Shown: positions 3,464 to 9,034 of the stretch, piece by piece
How positions within the stretch are numbered: the stretch's first letter is position 1
How the letters are laid out: every line of letters starts with the position of its first letter
IMG/VR virus record: IMGVR_UViG_3300044639_000249
Coordinates: 1 to 23,414 of that record
Length of the DNA: 23,414 nucleotides
Direction: 5' to 3' (one strand)
From: a virus
The notes under the pieces: generated by a model
Told to the model about the DNA's origin: nothing
Seen by the model: the letters and a program-made list of their open reading frames with translations, nothing else
Databases searched by the model: none
Made by a program: the position numbers and the translations under genes

Positions 3464-3866
3464 TAAACATAAAGATATTGATGTAGATAGATTGATTGAG
3501 TTATCTTATCAGTACTGTGATTATTGTATTGAGTCAACAAAAGAAGTGGCAACTGGGTCAGGAAAGATAGTAGACTTAAAAGAAAGACACATACCTACTA
3601 TTAGTTATTTTTTACTCCATTGGTTAAGAAGAAATGAGTTTGATTTTTATAAGAGAACAAATTTTTACGAGGCATTAAAGAATGATGAACATCCATTATC
3701 GAACACTATAAAAAGTATAGACGAAAATTTCAAGTCATTAGCTGGGGATATTGTAGCGAATGAGGGCAAAGGTATCTTTTACGCTAAGAACAAGCTAGGA
3801 TGGACTGATAAGATGCAAAACGACAATCATAACACAGAACAAGGATTGTTTTTAGAAGATGTTTAG
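3456..3866 (+). CDS. terS: Terminase small subunit (probable)
   Basis: A 136-residue protein immediately before, and overlapping by 8 nt, the large terminase gene. The small subunit recognises the packaging site and delivers DNA to the motor. The N-terminal half is helical (D-V-D-R-L-I-E-L-S-Y-Q-Y). The second half has S-N-T-I-K-S-I-D-E-N-F, then G-I-F-Y-A-K-N-K-L-G-W-T-D-K, a strong signature of small terminases in this phage group, where a xxIFxLKNxxGWxDK stretch ends the conserved region before an acidic tail. A helix-turn-helix cannot be placed with confidence. The call rests on the signature and position. Confidence 0.8.
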   Translation: MANKHKDIDVDRLIELSYQYCDYCIESTKEVATGSGKIVDLKERHIPTISYFLLHWLRRNEFDFYKRTNFYEALKNDEHPLSNTIKSIDENFKSLAGDIVANEGKGIFYAKNKLGWTDKMQNDNHNTEQGLFLEDV

Positions 3867-5031
3867 ATACACTACGGCAATAAAAAAGATACGAGGTTTA
3901 AAGAACTTTGTTAAAGGTATTCAAGGCGGTACTTCAGCTGGAAAAACCTTTGGTATATTGCCAGTATTAATAGATATTTGCGCTAAAAATCCATTAACTG
4001 AAACCTCAATAGTAGCCGAATCGTTCCCACATTTAAGGAGGGGAGCAATGAAAGACTTTAAAAAGATAATGCACCAAACAAATAGATGGGTGGAGCATCA
4101 TTGGAGGTCTACAGATAGCACCTATACTTTTGCAAATGGTTCAGTAATAGAGTTTTTTTCTGCTGATAATGACAGTAAGTTAAGAGGTGCAAGACGTGAT
4201 TATCTTTACATGAACGAATGTAATAACATGACTCTTCATGCTTACAATGAATTAGTATCAAGAACAAAAATCGGAGTGTATTTGGATTGGAATCCAGTCG
4301 CTCCTTTTTGGTTTCATGAAGAACTGCAAAACGATGCAGATGTTGACTTTTTAATCATTAACTATTTAGACAATGAGGCATGCCCTGAAAGTGCTTTAAA
4401 CTTTATTTTAAAAGCAAAAGAGAAAAGCACAACATCTAAGTACTGGGAGAATTGGTATAAAGTTTATGGACTTGGTTTAATTGGGAATCTTGAGGGGGTT
4501 ATATTTGAGAATTGGCATCAAATAGATACTATACCAAAAGATGCAAAGTTGGTAGGTCGTGGAATGGACTTTGGTTACACAAACGACCCTACGACAATGG
4601 TAGACGTTTACCAATGGAATAGTGAATATATCTTTGACGAGGTTATGTATTCAACTGGCTTAACTAACCCCGAAATATTTAGGACATTTAAGTCTAAAGG
4701 TTTAATCAATGCTATCTACACATTTGCTGATAGTGCAGAGCCTAAAAGTATTCAGGAGCTACGAAACATGGGAATGAATATCAAAGGAGCTGAAAAGGGA
4801 AAAGATAGTATAATGTTTGGTATTCAAAAGATTCAAGAGATTAAATTTAGTGTTACTTCAAATAGTACTAATCTAATCAAAGAGTTTAGGAATTATTCTT
4901 GGGATGTAGACAAACAAGGGAATAAACTAAACAAACCTATCGATTCATTTAATCATTGCATAGATGCTATTAGGTATTATTTCAGCACAAAAGACAAACA
5001 TAGTGGAAAATATATTGGAACTCATGCTTAG
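3859..5031 (+). CDS. terL: Terminase large subunit
   Basis: The packaging motor: ATPase plus headful or end-cutting nuclease. It is 390 residues long, compact for the family but complete. A Walker A loop G-G-T-S-A-G-K-T is at residues 23-30, followed by an arginine/phenylalanine-rich segment. The Walker B-like Y-L-Y-M-N-E-C-N is at 115-122, with E120 the likely catalytic carboxylate; asparagine stands where many terminases have aspartate. The C-terminal RNase H-like nuclease shows its acidic triad in G-R-G-M-D-F-G-Y (D237), F-A-D-S-A-E-P (D291) and H-C-I-D-A-I-R-Y (D369). It ends 30 nt before the next gene, across a gap that holds a -7-like box. Confidence 0.93.
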   Translation: MFRYTTAIKKIRGLKNFVKGIQGGTSAGKTFGILPVLIDICAKNPLTETSIVAESFPHLRRGAMKDFKKIMHQTNRWVEHHWRSTDSTYTFANGSVIEFFSADNDSKLRGARRDYLYMNECNNMTLHAYNELVSRTKIGVYLDWNPVAPFWFHEELQNDADVDFLIINYLDNEACPESALNFILKAKEKSTTSKYWENWYKVYGLGLIGNLEGVIFENWHQIDTIPKDAKLVGRGMDFGYTNDPTTMVDVYQWNSEYIFDEVMYSTGLTNPEIFRTFKSKGLINAIYTFADSAEPKSIQELRNMGMNIKGAEKGKDSIMFGIQKIQEIKFSVTSNSTNLIKEFRNYSWDVDKQGNKLNKPIDSFNHCIDAIRYYFSTKDKHSGKYIGTHA

Positions 5032-5060: not shown

Positions 5061-5270
5061 ATGAAAAGTAAGATGTTTAAAAATATTGTGATTAAACAAA
5101 TTCCAACTGCTGAATTTATAGGGGATGTATTAGTAAGTCCATACCCTAACATAAAAGTAAATGGAGTAATTAGAAAAGACCATGACATTTTACTACAAGC
5201 AATATCGAAGTTTAGCTATTCATCAGTAATAGAGGCAATGATTAACCCTAAAATAATAATAATGTTATGA
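5061..5270 (+). CDS. Hypothetical small protein (69 aa)
   Basis: A 69-residue soluble protein with a basic N-terminus (M-K-S-K-M-F-K) and a first half that looks strand-rich: V-I-K-Q-I-P-T-A-E-F-I-G-D and V-S-P-Y-P-N-I-K-V-N-G-V-I. A helix-like region around H-D-I-L-L-Q-A-I-S-K-F and S-S-V-I-E-A-M-I follows. I do not recognise a family. It is the first gene of the block that leads into the lipoprotein and glycosyltransferase genes, and its stop overlaps the next start (ATGA at 5267). The start is fixed by the -7-like box five bases upstream. Confidence 0.55.
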   Translation: MKSKMFKNIVIKQIPTAEFIGDVLVSPYPNIKVNGVIRKDHDILLQAISKFSYSSVIEAMINPKIIIML

Positions 5271-5617
5271 AGAAAGTATTTTTAATTATCGGTCTGTCCT
5301 TTATAGGATGTAAAAAAGAAGAAATAAAATCTAGTACAACCCTAACTATTTCACATTATACTGCGAGATTCAGTGTTGACTCGCCTAGTTCAACAGAATG
5401 CTTTATCAATGGTGAATCAGTGTATTTAAACGAGGGTTATGAGGTTATGACTGGAGATACTTTAACAATGGAGTCCCATGTTATGACTCACACCATAACT
5501 GCGACGATGCAAACTTACTGGGATAACCATTCGAATTTCATTGAGATTAATGGAGTTAAGAAATTAAAAGAGTCTTGTGCTTGCGCTCAATTAAATTCAA
5601 CTTACATCGTTAAGTAA
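5267..5617 (+). CDS. Putative phage-encoded lipoprotein (116 aa)
   Basis: A 116-residue secreted protein. Residues 1-14 form a short signal peptide (M-K-K-V-F-L-I-I-G-L-S-F-I-G) that ends in a lipobox F-I-G-C with C15 as the lipidated cysteine. The next residues are K-K-E-E, and acidic or lysine residues straight after the cysteine are common in Bacteroidota lipoproteins sent to the outer membrane or surface. The mature part is beta-rich with three more cysteines (E-C-F, S-C-A-C). It overlaps the previous gene by 4 nt and lies before the glycosyltransferase set. Phage lipoproteins often block superinfection or mask receptors, so this is a plausible role here, though not shown by the sequence. 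Confidence 0.65.
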   Translation: MKKVFLIIGLSFIGCKKEEIKSSTTLTISHYTARFSVDSPSSTECFINGESVYLNEGYEVMTGDTLTMESHVMTHTITATMQTYWDNHSNFIEINGVKKLKESCACAQLNSTYIVK

Positions 5618-5666
5618 TAGTGAATAAAAGAGGTTGTTTAATTCAAATAATAATAGGGTTTATTCT

Positions 5667-6563
5667 ATGGTGGATAATATTAGAATACTTAATATAGCGT
5701 CGAACGACTACGCTAACATGAGCCACAACAATGCCAATGCTTTGCGCTCGATTGGTGTTTACTGCAATGACTATGTATTAAGTAAACATCCTTTTGGGTA
5801 CGTTTCACAAAGTAAAGAAGTAACGAAAGATAGGATTAGAGACATTGTAAACACGTTCGATGTTGTTCAGATATTCCATACTTGCCCTATCTTATTAAAC
5901 GTAATTCAAGAAGCTAACTTTAAAGGCAAAATTATTGTTTACCATTCAGGAACTAGATACCGTAATGAACGCGAATATTGGAATAGAGTATTCAATCCAA
6001 TTGTACACAGATGTATAACAGACCAAACAGAGTTTATGGAGTTAGGCGCAAAGGATATTGAATACTTAGCACCACACACAGATTTAAAACCCGTAGATAA
6101 ACGCAAAGAGGGTAAACTTATAATCGGTCACTATCCAAGTAATGCTTTGGTAAAAGGCACGAAAGAGATTAGAGAAATGTTAGAGCCGTTTAAAGATGAC
6201 TTTGAAATTCGTATAGATGAAACGATACTCCCACATGAAGAGAATTTAAAACGTATTGCTGAATGCCATATTTACATCGAGTTGTTTAAACCCGAGTTAA
6301 ACGGTAAACCTTATGGATGTTTTGGAGTGACTGCATTTGAGGCTACGGCTTTGGGATGTGTAGTTTTAACAAATAACTTACATGAATCAATATACACTAA
6401 TATTTATAAAAATCAACCGTTTTGTATTGCCAATGATAAACCAACGTTTCAAAGGTTTATAAAGCTATTTAAAAGTTATAATAAAATGAATGATATATCT
6501 ACCTTTCAAAATAACCATTCAATCGAATCAACAGGAAAAAGAATACTAGACTTAATAAAATGA
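5667..6563 (+). CDS. GT-B fold (GT4-like) glycosyltransferase
   Basis: A 298-residue glycosyltransferase of the two-Rossmann-domain type, which would transfer a sugar from a nucleotide donor. The N-terminal domain has I-R-I-L-N-I-A-S-N-D-Y-A, then H-N-N-A-N-A-L-R-S-I-G-V, and Y-H-S-G-T-R-Y-R at about 92-99. The C-terminal domain has L-I-I-G-H-Y-P-S (151-158) and the donor-binding segment G-V-T-A-F-E-A-T-A-L-G-C at 220-231, equivalent to the second glutamate of the GT4 EX7E motif (E225). The first glutamate is not in its usual place. I chose the ATG at 5667. The frame stays open back to a TTG at 5634, but those eleven residues look non-coding. It overlaps the methyltransferase gene by 4 nt. 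Confidence 0.8.
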   Translation: MVDNIRILNIASNDYANMSHNNANALRSIGVYCNDYVLSKHPFGYVSQSKEVTKDRIRDIVNTFDVVQIFHTCPILLNVIQEANFKGKIIVYHSGTRYRNEREYWNRVFNPIVHRCITDQTEFMELGAKDIEYLAPHTDLKPVDKRKEGKLIIGHYPSNALVKGTKEIREMLEPFKDDFEIRIDETILPHEENLKRIAECHIYIELFKPELNGKPYGCFGVTAFEATALGCVVLTNNLHESIYTNIYKNQPFCIANDKPTFQRFIKLFKSYNKMNDISTFQNNHSIESTGKRILDLIK

Positions 6564-7090
6564 AAGCAACTAAAAAAGCGTGGAAAGGCGCAACTGATAA
6601 CCTTAGAGCAAGACAGCAGAAAGCACAACACACGGATGACAATAGAACAGCTCCAAACGTGCTAAGAGATTACACAACACATTTAAATAAGTGTGGGTAT
6701 GGTAATAGTATTTTAGATGTTGGATGCGGTGGTCAATTCCTAAAAACTTGCATACCTGAAGATATTGAGTATATCGGTTTAGATGCTTTTCCAATTAAAG
6801 GAGTGCCAACATTGAAAGGTAGTATTGAAACTATTGAGGGTATCGAAGTAGATACTGTTTGTTGTATGGCGGTTTTAGATAACTGTTTAGATTTTGATAA
6901 GGCAATTGAGAACATTAAGAAGATAGCTAAAAAGAATGTTATTATCTTAACTGGTATTGATATTGAAGTAGACGAGTATCATACATTTAAATTACAACTA
7001 TCAGATTTTCACGACCGTTTCAAAGATTGGAATCAAACACACTATGAAGAGTTAACACCTAAAGTATGGTTACTATGTTACACCCGCTAG
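6560..7090 (+). CDS. SAM-dependent methyltransferase (class I)
   Basis: A 176-residue Rossmann-fold methyltransferase. The first 45 residues are basic and helical (R-A-R-Q-Q-K-A-Q). Motif I is I-L-D-V-G-C-G-G at 51-58, the acidic residue that binds the ribose of S-adenosylmethionine is D75 in Y-I-G-L-D-A, and a motif IV-like stretch V-D-T-V-C-C-M-A-V-L-D follows at 98-107. A strand V-I-I-L-T-G comes after the next helix. No DNA-methyltransferase catalytic motif (DPPY/NPPY or PC) is visible, so a small-molecule, sugar or protein substrate is more likely. It starts inside the stop of one glycosyltransferase gene and overlaps the next by 25 nt, which suggests the three enzymes act on one product. 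Confidence 0.8.
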   Translation: MKATKKAWKGATDNLRARQQKAQHTDDNRTAPNVLRDYTTHLNKCGYGNSILDVGCGGQFLKTCIPEDIEYIGLDAFPIKGVPTLKGSIETIEGIEVDTVCCMAVLDNCLDFDKAIENIKKIAKKNVIILTGIDIEVDEYHTFKLQLSDFHDRFKDWNQTHYEELTPKVWLLCYTR

Positions 7091-8304
7091 TTAGTATCAT
7101 AATACCTTATTCAGTAGATAGGGGTTATTTAGATGTAGCGATTGAAAGCGTTAAAAAACAAACATATCCTAACATTGAATTATTAATACAAAATGATAAT
7201 GTTAACGTATCGACTAACATAAACAACGGGATTAAACGAGCGAAAGGTGAATACATTAAGTACCTATGTGAAGATGACTATTTAACCCCGAACTCTATTA
7301 CTGATAGTGTAAAAGCAATACAAGGATTTGATTTTATTCACGGGGTTGCTAATAATATTCACGGTGCATTTACACAAGTTCAGAAACCAAGGATAATCCA
7401 TCCAAGCATTAATGATATGTTGTTCAATAATGTTATTCATGGAGGTACTTTGATGTATAGAAAAGATGTATTTGATAAGGTTGGATACTTTGATGAGTCG
7501 TTAACTTGTGCTGAAGAGTATGAACTTAACTTAAGATGCTTAGATTTTGGTTTAAAACTAGGTTATACAGATAAAATCCTTTACAATTACAGACGACATG
7601 ACGCTCAAAAGTCACTAGGAAAAGGAATTAATCAAGGTGAAAGAGCCTTAAAGATACAAGCGATTAAAGATAAGTATAAAAGACTACCGATAATAGTAGG
7701 TATTGCAACATTTAAAGGTCGTGAGGAACTATTAAAACGCACAATAGAGTCATTAGATGGTCAAGTTGATAAGATAATTATCTACGACAATGAAGTAAAT
7801 CCAGACCTAACAGATAACGGTAAGTTTTACGGGTTGAAATATTCAAGAAAACCGTCTTATTATTTCAGTTGTGATGACGATATTATCTATCCACCTAACT
7901 ATATTCAACATACTATCCAAGCAATTGAGAAATATGGATGCATTGTAACGTATCACGGTAGGAAGTTAAAAGGGTTAGGATTAAATTACTACTTAGGTCA
8001 TGATGCTTATAGCGCTTTTAAAAACGTTTCACAAGATATGCAAATAGATATTGCTGGAACGGGAGTAACTGCGTTTAAAACGTCTTATTTCAATCCTATT
8101 AATTTGATTCATTCAAAATACAAAAAGATGAGTGATGTTATTTTTAGTTTAGAGGCAAAGAAACAGAATAAAAAAATACAGATAATCACACACGGTCAAG
8201 AGTGGATAAAAGAACAACGTACACAAATTAACATTCACACGGAACAAATTAAGAACTCACAAACACAAACGAAATTATGCGACGAAATACTGAGATTGAA
8301 GTAA
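7066..8304 (+). CDS. Tandem-domain GT-A (GT2-like) glycosyltransferase
   Basis: A 412-residue protein with two GT-A domains in a row. Domain 1 (about 7-205) has L-V-S-I-I-I-P-Y, the helix V-K-K-Q-T-Y-P-N-I-E and C-E-D-D-Y at 68-72, the DXD-type nucleotide-sugar/metal site; A-E-E-Y-E-L at 149-154 provides the catalytic-base region. Domain 2 (about 207-385) restarts with I-I-V-G-I-A-T-F-K-G-R-E, then S-C-D-D-D-I-I-Y-P at 268-276, G-T-G at 331-333 and M-S-D-V at 355-358. Both DXD sites are intact, so it may add two sugars or two different sugars. Start could be 7066 or ATG 7075. It overlaps the methyltransferase gene upstream and the tail chaperone gene downstream by 28 nt. Confidence 0.82.
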   Translation: MVTMLHPLVSIIIPYSVDRGYLDVAIESVKKQTYPNIELLIQNDNVNVSTNINNGIKRAKGEYIKYLCEDDYLTPNSITDSVKAIQGFDFIHGVANNIHGAFTQVQKPRIIHPSINDMLFNNVIHGGTLMYRKDVFDKVGYFDESLTCAEEYELNLRCLDFGLKLGYTDKILYNYRRHDAQKSLGKGINQGERALKIQAIKDKYKRLPIIVGIATFKGREELLKRTIESLDGQVDKIIIYDNEVNPDLTDNGKFYGLKYSRKPSYYFSCDDDIIYPPNYIQHTIQAIEKYGCIVTYHGRKLKGLGLNYYLGHDAYSAFKNVSQDMQIDIAGTGVTAFKTSYFNPINLIHSKYKKMSDVIFSLEAKKQNKKIQIITHGQEWIKEQRTQINIHTEQIKNSQTQTKLCDEILRLK

Positions 8305-8891
8305 GACTACCAAAGACAATTAACGATTTAAGAATTAGGCATCTTAGAGCCTTTAGTGATGAATCATTTAAAGCTGATAGTATCACACTAAATGCTAAAG
8401 TGATATTCCTAGCAAATATATCTTTGGTATCAGTTGGTCAATTAATGACTATACATCACGAGCGTATTACAGAAATGTTTAACCATTGCATGGGATTGTT
8501 TGCCGATTATAAACTAAACGGAAACCCGAAAGACTTTATAACTATTAACGGTATCGAATACCAAAGAGTAGATATTAAAAAGGTTGGTATTGGTTACCAC
8601 ATTGACTGCAGTAAATCAGACTTTGATAAAGATCCCGTGCGACTAGCTTGTATTAACTACATTCCAAAGGGAACTATCTACGGTGAATTAGATGAGAACG
8701 AAAATCTTAAATATCCAATTGCATCAAGATATGAGGACTTTAAAGAACATTTTAAGATGACTGATTTTGTAGAGTTGCACGCTTTTTTTTTGCTCAAAGT
8801 ATGGAGCTTAATCGACAGTTATACGGAGAAAGAAAAGATAGAAAAGAAGTTAAAAAGAGTGTTGAGAATATTTGGGAGTGGCACGAAATAA
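8277..8891 (+). CDS. Putative tail assembly chaperone (short, G-like form)
   Basis: A 204-residue soluble protein. It begins with a strand E-I-E-V-R-L-P-K, then I-R-H-L-R-A-F, a helical region (about 45-85), G-I-E-Y-Q-R-V-D-I-K-K-V-G-I-G-Y-H-I-D, and a late helical region M-T-D-F-V-E-L-H-A-F-F-L-L-K. The layout resembles tail assembly chaperones of phages in this group, but direct family recognition is weak. The main support is structural: a T-run over codons 169-172 provides a -1 slippery heptamer leading into an overlapping second frame, the hallmark of G/GT chaperone pairs, and the genes that follow are tail genes. Its start lies 28 nt inside the glycosyltransferase gene. Confidence 0.6.
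   Translation: MRRNTEIEVRLPKTINDLRIRHLRAFSDESFKADSITLNAKVIFLANISLVSVGQLMTIHHERITEMFNHCMGLFADYKLNGNPKDFITINGIEYQRVDIKKVGIGYHIDCSKSDFDKDPVRLACINYIPKGTIYGELDENENLKYPIASRYEDFKEHFKMTDFVELHAFFLLKVWSLIDSYTEKEKIEKKLKRVLRIFGSGTK
8786..8792 (+). other. Probable programmed -1 ribosomal frameshift site
   Basis: In the frame of the 8277 gene the codons here read TTT TTG preceded by T, giving the heptamer T TTT TTG within a run of nine T (8783-8791). This fits X XXY YYZ, where both tRNAs can slip back one base. The -1 frame is open from 8765 to 9034. Slippage would join residues 1-172 of the first frame to about 80 residues of the second, giving roughly 252 residues. I did not find a clear stimulatory hairpin by eye. 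Confidence 0.6.
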
Positions 8892-9034
8892 TTATTTTCC
8901 TATCAAAAGAGTTAAACGAAAATAGAAAAGATATCGTAAAAATGAATATCTTTACATTTAATAACTGGCTAAACTACTTTACGCAAAAATTGAAAAAGGA
9001 AATAGCTGAAACAAAAATGATAAAGAGAAGATGA
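8801..9034 (+). CDS. Second frame of tail assembly chaperone (T-like part, expressed by -1 frameshift)
   Basis: This frame lies in -1 phase to the gene at 8277 and overlaps it by at least 91 nt. It has an ATG at 8801 but is open back to 8765, across the T-run, so the likely product is a fusion entering at about 8792 with A-Q-S-M-E-L-N. The second half is helical with W-H-E-I-I-I-F-L-S-K-E-L-N and D-I-V-K-M-N-I-F-T-F-N-N-W, the kind of short helical domain seen in the T part of chaperones that contacts the tape measure. Its stop overlaps the next start (ATGA at 9031), so translation in this frame continues naturally into the following tail gene. Independent translation from 8801 is an alternative. 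Confidence 0.55.
   Translation: MELNRQLYGERKDRKEVKKSVENIWEWHEIIIFLSKELNENRKDIVKMNIFTFNNWLNYFTQKLKKEIAETKMIKRR

Follow-up and report, generated by a model that had tools for sequence, protein, structure and literature searches.

The window, meaning the whole stretch of DNA analysed here, spans an entire IMG/VR record, which has 23,414 bp and is classed as linear. In it, a trio of overlapping genes lies downstream of the terminase large subunit gene (terL) and upstream of genes for a tape measure protein, a head protease, a portal protein and a tail-fibre-like protein. The trio is predicted to encode four activities, namely a GT-B glycosyltransferase (GT), a GT2 enzyme, a KfiA-type GT and a methyltransferase (MT). 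The features of the locus were the following:

3859..5031, plus strand: terminase large subunit, terL (PF17288 E=1e-20; PHROG 5653 E=1.5e-39), the 5' border of the slot
5267..5617, plus strand: small lipoprotein with a signal peptide and the lipobox ...SFIGC-KKEE, directly 5' of the GT-B gene
5667..6563, plus strand: predicted GT-B fold glycosyltransferase, GT4-like, 298 aa (AF2 model and Foldseek)
6560..7090, plus strand: predicted class I SAM-dependent methyltransferase, 176 aa (Pfam, alignment and PDB match)
7066-8304, plus strand: whole GT-A gene, two domains, 412 residues (ORF and domain matches)
7066..7680, plus strand: predicted GT2 (GT-A) domain, residues 1-205 of the fusion protein, with the CEDD motif (PF00535)
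7681..8304, plus strand: KfiA/heparosan-synthase GlcNAc-transferase-like (GT45-type) domain, residues 206-412, with CDDDIIYP (profile and Foldseek)
8277..8891, plus strand: tail-assembly-chaperone-like gene, with a T9 slip site at 8783-8791 and a -1 frame into 8801-9034, the 3' border of the slot

On re-reading the sequence, we recovered the three ORFs as the sequence-only reading had described them, with overlaps of 4 nt (ATGA) between GT-B and MT, 25 nt between MT and GT-A, and 28 nt between GT-A and the tail gene, together with both DXD-type sites of the GT-A protein (CEDDY at residues 68-72 and CDDDIIYP at residues 269-276). The GT-B gene starts with ATG; a TTG at 5634 is also possible, yet the relatives start at the ATG. 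An alternative start of the GT-A gene at 7075 was backed by relatives. The dN/dS values of the trio against near relatives ranged from 0.06 to 0.28, similar to those of the structural neighbours or somewhat above them; the trio genes are thus functional, and purifying selection ruled out that they are chance ORFs.

The GT-A gene had been described as a single enzyme with two DXD sites. Both sites are present, but Pfam, our profiles and Foldseek identified two GT domains, and we read the gene as a fusion of two predicted transferases, GT2 (residues 1-205) and KfiA/GT45-like (residues 206-412). The N-terminal part matched Pfam GT2 (PF00535, E=8e-16) and showed profile similarity to the second GT domain of chondroitin synthase. 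Its match to the heparosan synthase PmHS2 of Pasteurella multocida (PDB 8vh7/8viw) covered 44 residues (E=0.034) and was outscored by other GT2 enzymes, so the domain appears only generically GT2-like. The C-terminal part was clearly homologous to KfiA-type domains and is a putative GlcNAc transferase: the A2 profile matched PmHS2 with E=1.7e-47 and KfiA with E=7.4e-27, and the single sequence alone matched PmHS2 with E=1.3e-20. The motifs DNGKF, CDDDIIYP, HG, GTG and M-D were conserved between this domain and PmHS2, and homology together with the conserved CDDDIIYP, HG and GTG motifs placed it with the GT45-type enzymes. KfiA and its relatives make up CAZy family GT45.

The AF2 model of the GT-A protein (pLDDT 88.6) gave PmHS2 as its first seven Foldseek matches, over both domains and with E down to 2.5e-27, and its TM-score against KfiA, normalised to KfiA, was 0.71-0.74. 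The global superposition on PmHS2 was poor (rmsd 15.6 A), thus the two domains match PmHS2 one by one and not as a rigid whole. Like PmHS2, the phage protein combines a GT2-type and a KfiA-type domain in one chain, in the order GT2-GT45; it is shorter (412 residues vs 552-559 in the crystal and EM constructs), its N-terminal domain is a distant GT2, an additional GT-B and an MT lie alongside, and its polymerase activity is putative. KfiA of E. coli K5 (PDB 5z8b) belongs to the same GT-A family as the phage C-terminal domain, but it is a stand-alone capsule enzyme that works with the partner KfiC, whereas in the phages the domain either forms part of a GT2 fusion or has other GTs as partners. 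Both halves were also found separately: GT2 was a gene of its own in loci L048, L119, L125 and others, and the GT45-type domain stood alone in many phages. A 999-aa Psychrobacter protein (L098:6714-9710), with no visible phage block around it, also contained a domain resembling the KfiA-type one of the phages.

Should the fusion truly polymerise, adding two sugars in alternation, its product would be a heparosan-like or other GAG-like chain at the surface of the phage or of the cell. The domain order and the best structural match, a bifunctional polymerase, favour this reading, as does the fact that in other cases a KfiA-type domain acts together with a second GT, L048 and L046 with their split GT2 and GT45 pairs being examples. 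We consider it improbable, since the N-terminal domain is just generically GT2-like, the domain arrangement of the model does not superpose on whole PmHS2, and the additional GT-B and MT fit a defined oligosaccharide better; moreover, the GT45 domain was missing from many cassettes that retain GTB and GT2, which argues against polymerisation as the constant function.

The sequence-only reading had also assigned a GT-B enzyme. Pfam gave only a match below cut-off (PF13524 E=0.14) and a PDB sequence search of this protein returned no match, but the AF2 model (pLDDT 81.5) and its Foldseek matches in the PDB, which were GT-B/GT4-type enzymes (best E=1.9e-9) and included the phage GT HY126, confirmed the predicted fold. 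Structure prediction with Foldseek, the check proposed for these enzymes and run on GT-B and GT-A, therefore returned glycosyltransferase folds for both. Alignment A3 showed GT-B residues from about 236 to 285, past the conserved donor-site stretch, to be hypervariable even between relatives that are close in the rest of the protein, a pattern resembling recombinational exchange. The MT carried the SAM-binding motif LDVGCG, invariant among relatives (alignment A4), and showed similarity to the Pfam families Methyltransf_23/11/12, with significant E-values (3.2e-5 for Methyltransf_23) and bit scores just under the Pfam cut-offs; it also matched the putative methyltransferase PDB 3cc8 (E=0.0045). 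These features are those of a class I methyltransferase, and its linkage to the GT genes suggests a sugar as substrate.

Small lipoproteins with a Lys/Glu-rich stretch after the lipobox Cys were found just before GTB in the window (5267-5617), in L081 (7728-7964) and in L009 (4437-4655). The window lipoprotein is a possible companion of GT-B. A constant place in the cassette was ruled out by the L131 group, whose slot has no lipoprotein.

At the 3' border, gene 8277-8891 had been labelled a tail chaperone. It found no match in PHROG; despite this, the label is well founded, because the T9 run at 8783-8791 (T7/TTTTTTG), where slipping into the -1 frame leads to ORF 8801-9034, was kept as slip site and -1 frame extension in 21 out of 21 relatives tested, cassette-bearing or not.

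The viral contig scans recovered 60 GT-A loci, 35 GTB loci and 39 MT loci, and to survey the slot we combined gene maps with profile labels for 78 loci that carry a related tail gene. The slot between terL and the tail chaperone gene was empty in 17 contigs, where the two genes were adjacent (gap of -77 to +224 nt), and filled with sugar genes in 27 contigs; this classification relies on ORFs called greedily and on profiles of our own making, and most contigs were partial. The combinations found were GTB-MT-GT2+GT45 fused, GTB-GT2+GT45, GTB-MT-GT2, GTB-GT2, GT2-GT45 and FW-GT25-GT45, where FW is an unnamed family recognised by its own alignment. FW also occurred with GT45 and further genes: a formyltransferase and FkbM in L036, a hexapeptide acyltransferase in L038 and L194, and a GT9-like gene and a methyltransferase in L150 (terL was seen in L194 and not labelled in the other three). 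On a quick tree of the tail protein, the slot state changed at least 4 times, the MT at least 9 times (a count that includes cassettes without GTB) and GT45 at least 2 times. Among the GTB-bearing rows of this tree, which has open forks, MT was missing at about six separate places, an approximate count made by inspection. The MT is thus gained and lost while the GTs are retained, and the methyl step is optional. L003, L131 and L028 are natural relatives that lack the MT.

The trio therefore occupies a fixed slot as an accessory module that can be exchanged, and it does not belong to the virion core. Two cassette-negative long records had no GT2 anywhere, and in the cassette-bearing long records, including the window and the contig of L131, the GT2 matches were located at the cassette. 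Three contigs carried NUMOD4-HNH endonuclease genes in or beside the cassette (L119:4504-4998, L124:3330-3830 and L123:5665-6288), which might help to mobilise it. Within this phage lineage, two very different terminase large subunits were swapped ahead of the same tail block, as seen in L020, L021 and their relatives. A 36.7-kb relative encoded, upstream of terS, a 231-aa protein made mostly of Gly/Ser/Tyr/Asp repeats (L084:18536-19228).

The genes also kept company outside this slot. L115 and L118 carried GTB-MT-GTA, 51-62% identical, at the tail/head boundary rather than in the terL slot and among different tail and head genes, and L122 and L124 had a different arrangement of MT-GTB-GT2 and GT45, interrupted in L124 by an HNH gene. 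In L081, a lipoprotein gene different from that of the window had travelled together with a GTB homologue: the pair shared 85% DNA identity with L005/L130, against at most 28% for the tail proteins next to it, which marks a recent transfer between phage lineages. Inspection ruled out that the second slot stems from a chimeric assembly, as L115, L118 and L081 share the tail-completion/GTB arrangement. Because the genes remain together through moves between lineages, the GTs and the MT very probably serve one pathway, as had been proposed. The accompanying proposal of one short, methyl-capped glycan of two or three sugars stood in so far as GTs and MT belong to one pathway, but the GT-A gene appears bifunctional and the methyl step is optional; the predicted enzymes could account for up to three sugar transfers, or for a two-sugar repeat.

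In the filled slots, 88 of 131 gene junctions overlapped, which is consistent with co-expression. The trio had been expected to be co-transcribed with structural genes, and it is co-directional with the late genes and overlapping; the promoter and terminator scans did no better than chance, with 2 Bacteroidota promoter motifs found against 2.02 expected and sigma-70-like and terminator-like sites no commoner than in shuffles. Judging by the overlaps, co-transcription with the late virion genes seems plausible. No integrase was detected in 17 records in which the controls gave signal, and the phage is probably virulent. The terminase showed 53% similarity to phages of Flavobacterium psychrophilum, which suggests a tailed phage of Bacteroidota. 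In INPHARED a single weak match was obtained, with the GT-A query; GT-B, MT, the GT45 of L035, the distant GT-B of L125 and the tail protein had none, and no relative was found among GenBank phages. In genome contigs, the motif YYFSCDDD occurred at three distant loci, none of them in Bacteroidota, and one of these was the Psychrobacter protein mentioned above.

Phage GTs frequently act on DNA, and these enzymes could accordingly glycosylate and methylate hypermodified phage DNA; HY126 among the structural matches of GT-B points the same way, as does one distant relative, L046, in which a TET-associated glycosyltransferase gene (PF20691) adjoins terL, lying upstream of it with a ParB-like gene (L046:5114-6434). 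The companion enzyme that a hydroxymethylated or hydroxylated base would need was found neither by the thymidylate synthase search, negative in 17 records with the controls giving signal, nor by the Pfam search of the contig of L131, where none of 18 Pfam families in 44 proteins was a base-hypermodification family or pyrimidine-modifying. This contig measures 34,278 bp and its ends overlap by about 165 bp with few differences, so it is near complete. In addition, the GT25, formyltransferase and acyltransferase genes found in the same slot suit glycans rather than bases. The absence of a link to pyrimidine modification, noted before from the window, was thus borne out, and we regard base modification as very unlikely.

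A strongly hydrophobic 19-residue stretch was present in just 6 of the 104 slot proteins, and no GT or MT family was a membrane protein. Soluble slot proteins and the lack of base-modifying enzymes point to cytoplasmic assembly of a glycan, either on a virion protein or on a cytoplasmic host glycan precursor. The reading that we tentatively prefer, at somewhat less than an even chance, is a late-expressed cytoplasmic pathway for a short glycan, often methylated, with a virion protein as its likeliest target. Four soluble activities would operate in the host cytoplasm: GT-B or GT2 would place the first sugar on the acceptor, the remaining GTs would lengthen this into a short oligosaccharide, and in cassettes that have an MT, this enzyme would cap or mark one of the sugars. 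The acceptor would most likely be a virion protein, by analogy with glycosylated mycobacteriophages, and variation of the cassette would alter the particle surface or adsorption properties. The sugars, the order of transfer, the acceptor and the benefit are all inferred. The position among structural genes speaks to timing and not to target, and the modification would be dispensable for virion assembly because many close relatives have no cassette. The small lipoprotein gene beside GT-B could count against a virion target and point to the envelope.

Host surface glycans are the less likely acceptor, and a small share of the probability goes to roles other than those discussed here. The cassette would then remodel LPS core or O-antigen, capsule or surface-lipoprotein O-glycans late in infection, against superinfection or the loss of progeny on debris, which we consider possible but doubtful. 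The repertoire of the slots (GT4, GT2, GT9-like, GT25, FkbM, formyltransferase and hexapeptide acyltransferase) is of the types found in bacterial surface polysaccharide loci, the GT45-like domain is akin to capsule enzymes, and another phage lineage acquired a small lipoprotein gene along with a GTB homologue; however, the lipoprotein is not constant, and probably virulent phages profit less from seroconversion. The gtr-type serotype-converting cassettes of temperate phages are likewise accessory glycan-modifying gene sets. They combine a flippase, a polyprenyl-phosphate glucosyltransferase and a membrane GT, whereas none of the few slot proteins with a hydrophobic stretch belonged to such a set and the phage is not visibly temperate.

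For a virion target, the closest comparison is with mycobacteriophages Che8 and Rita, whose capsid proteins carry glycans according to work cited in PMC11256854 and whose phage-encoded GTs are thought to decorate the virion. One Che8 GT resembled the GT-A protein weakly in structure (E=1.5e-9). The GT families, host and genome position differ; in Maravista, a relative of Che8 and Rita, the GTs are encoded close to the genome's 3' end and not between terL and tail genes (PMC11256854).

In a text search of an open-access library, judged by titles and abstracts, no paper reported a heparosan synthase or KfiA in a phage, and our analysis places a heparosan-synthase-like architecture in phages. A bolder version, which we hold to be a long shot, is that an uncultured phage lineage coats its virions with a heparosan-like (GAG-type) or other repeating methylated glycan made by its own GT2-KfiA fusion, with a dedicated swap-in slot that exchanges whole pathways like serotypes. 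Small soluble KfiA-type enzymes are potentially useful tools. The related phages with an empty slot, with or without MT and with or without the KfiA-type domain, form a natural experiment on phage glycan cassettes. Should the virion prove to be the target, cassette swapping would amount to an exchange of surface 'serotypes' among these phages, which would bear on host range, immunity and phage-phage competition.
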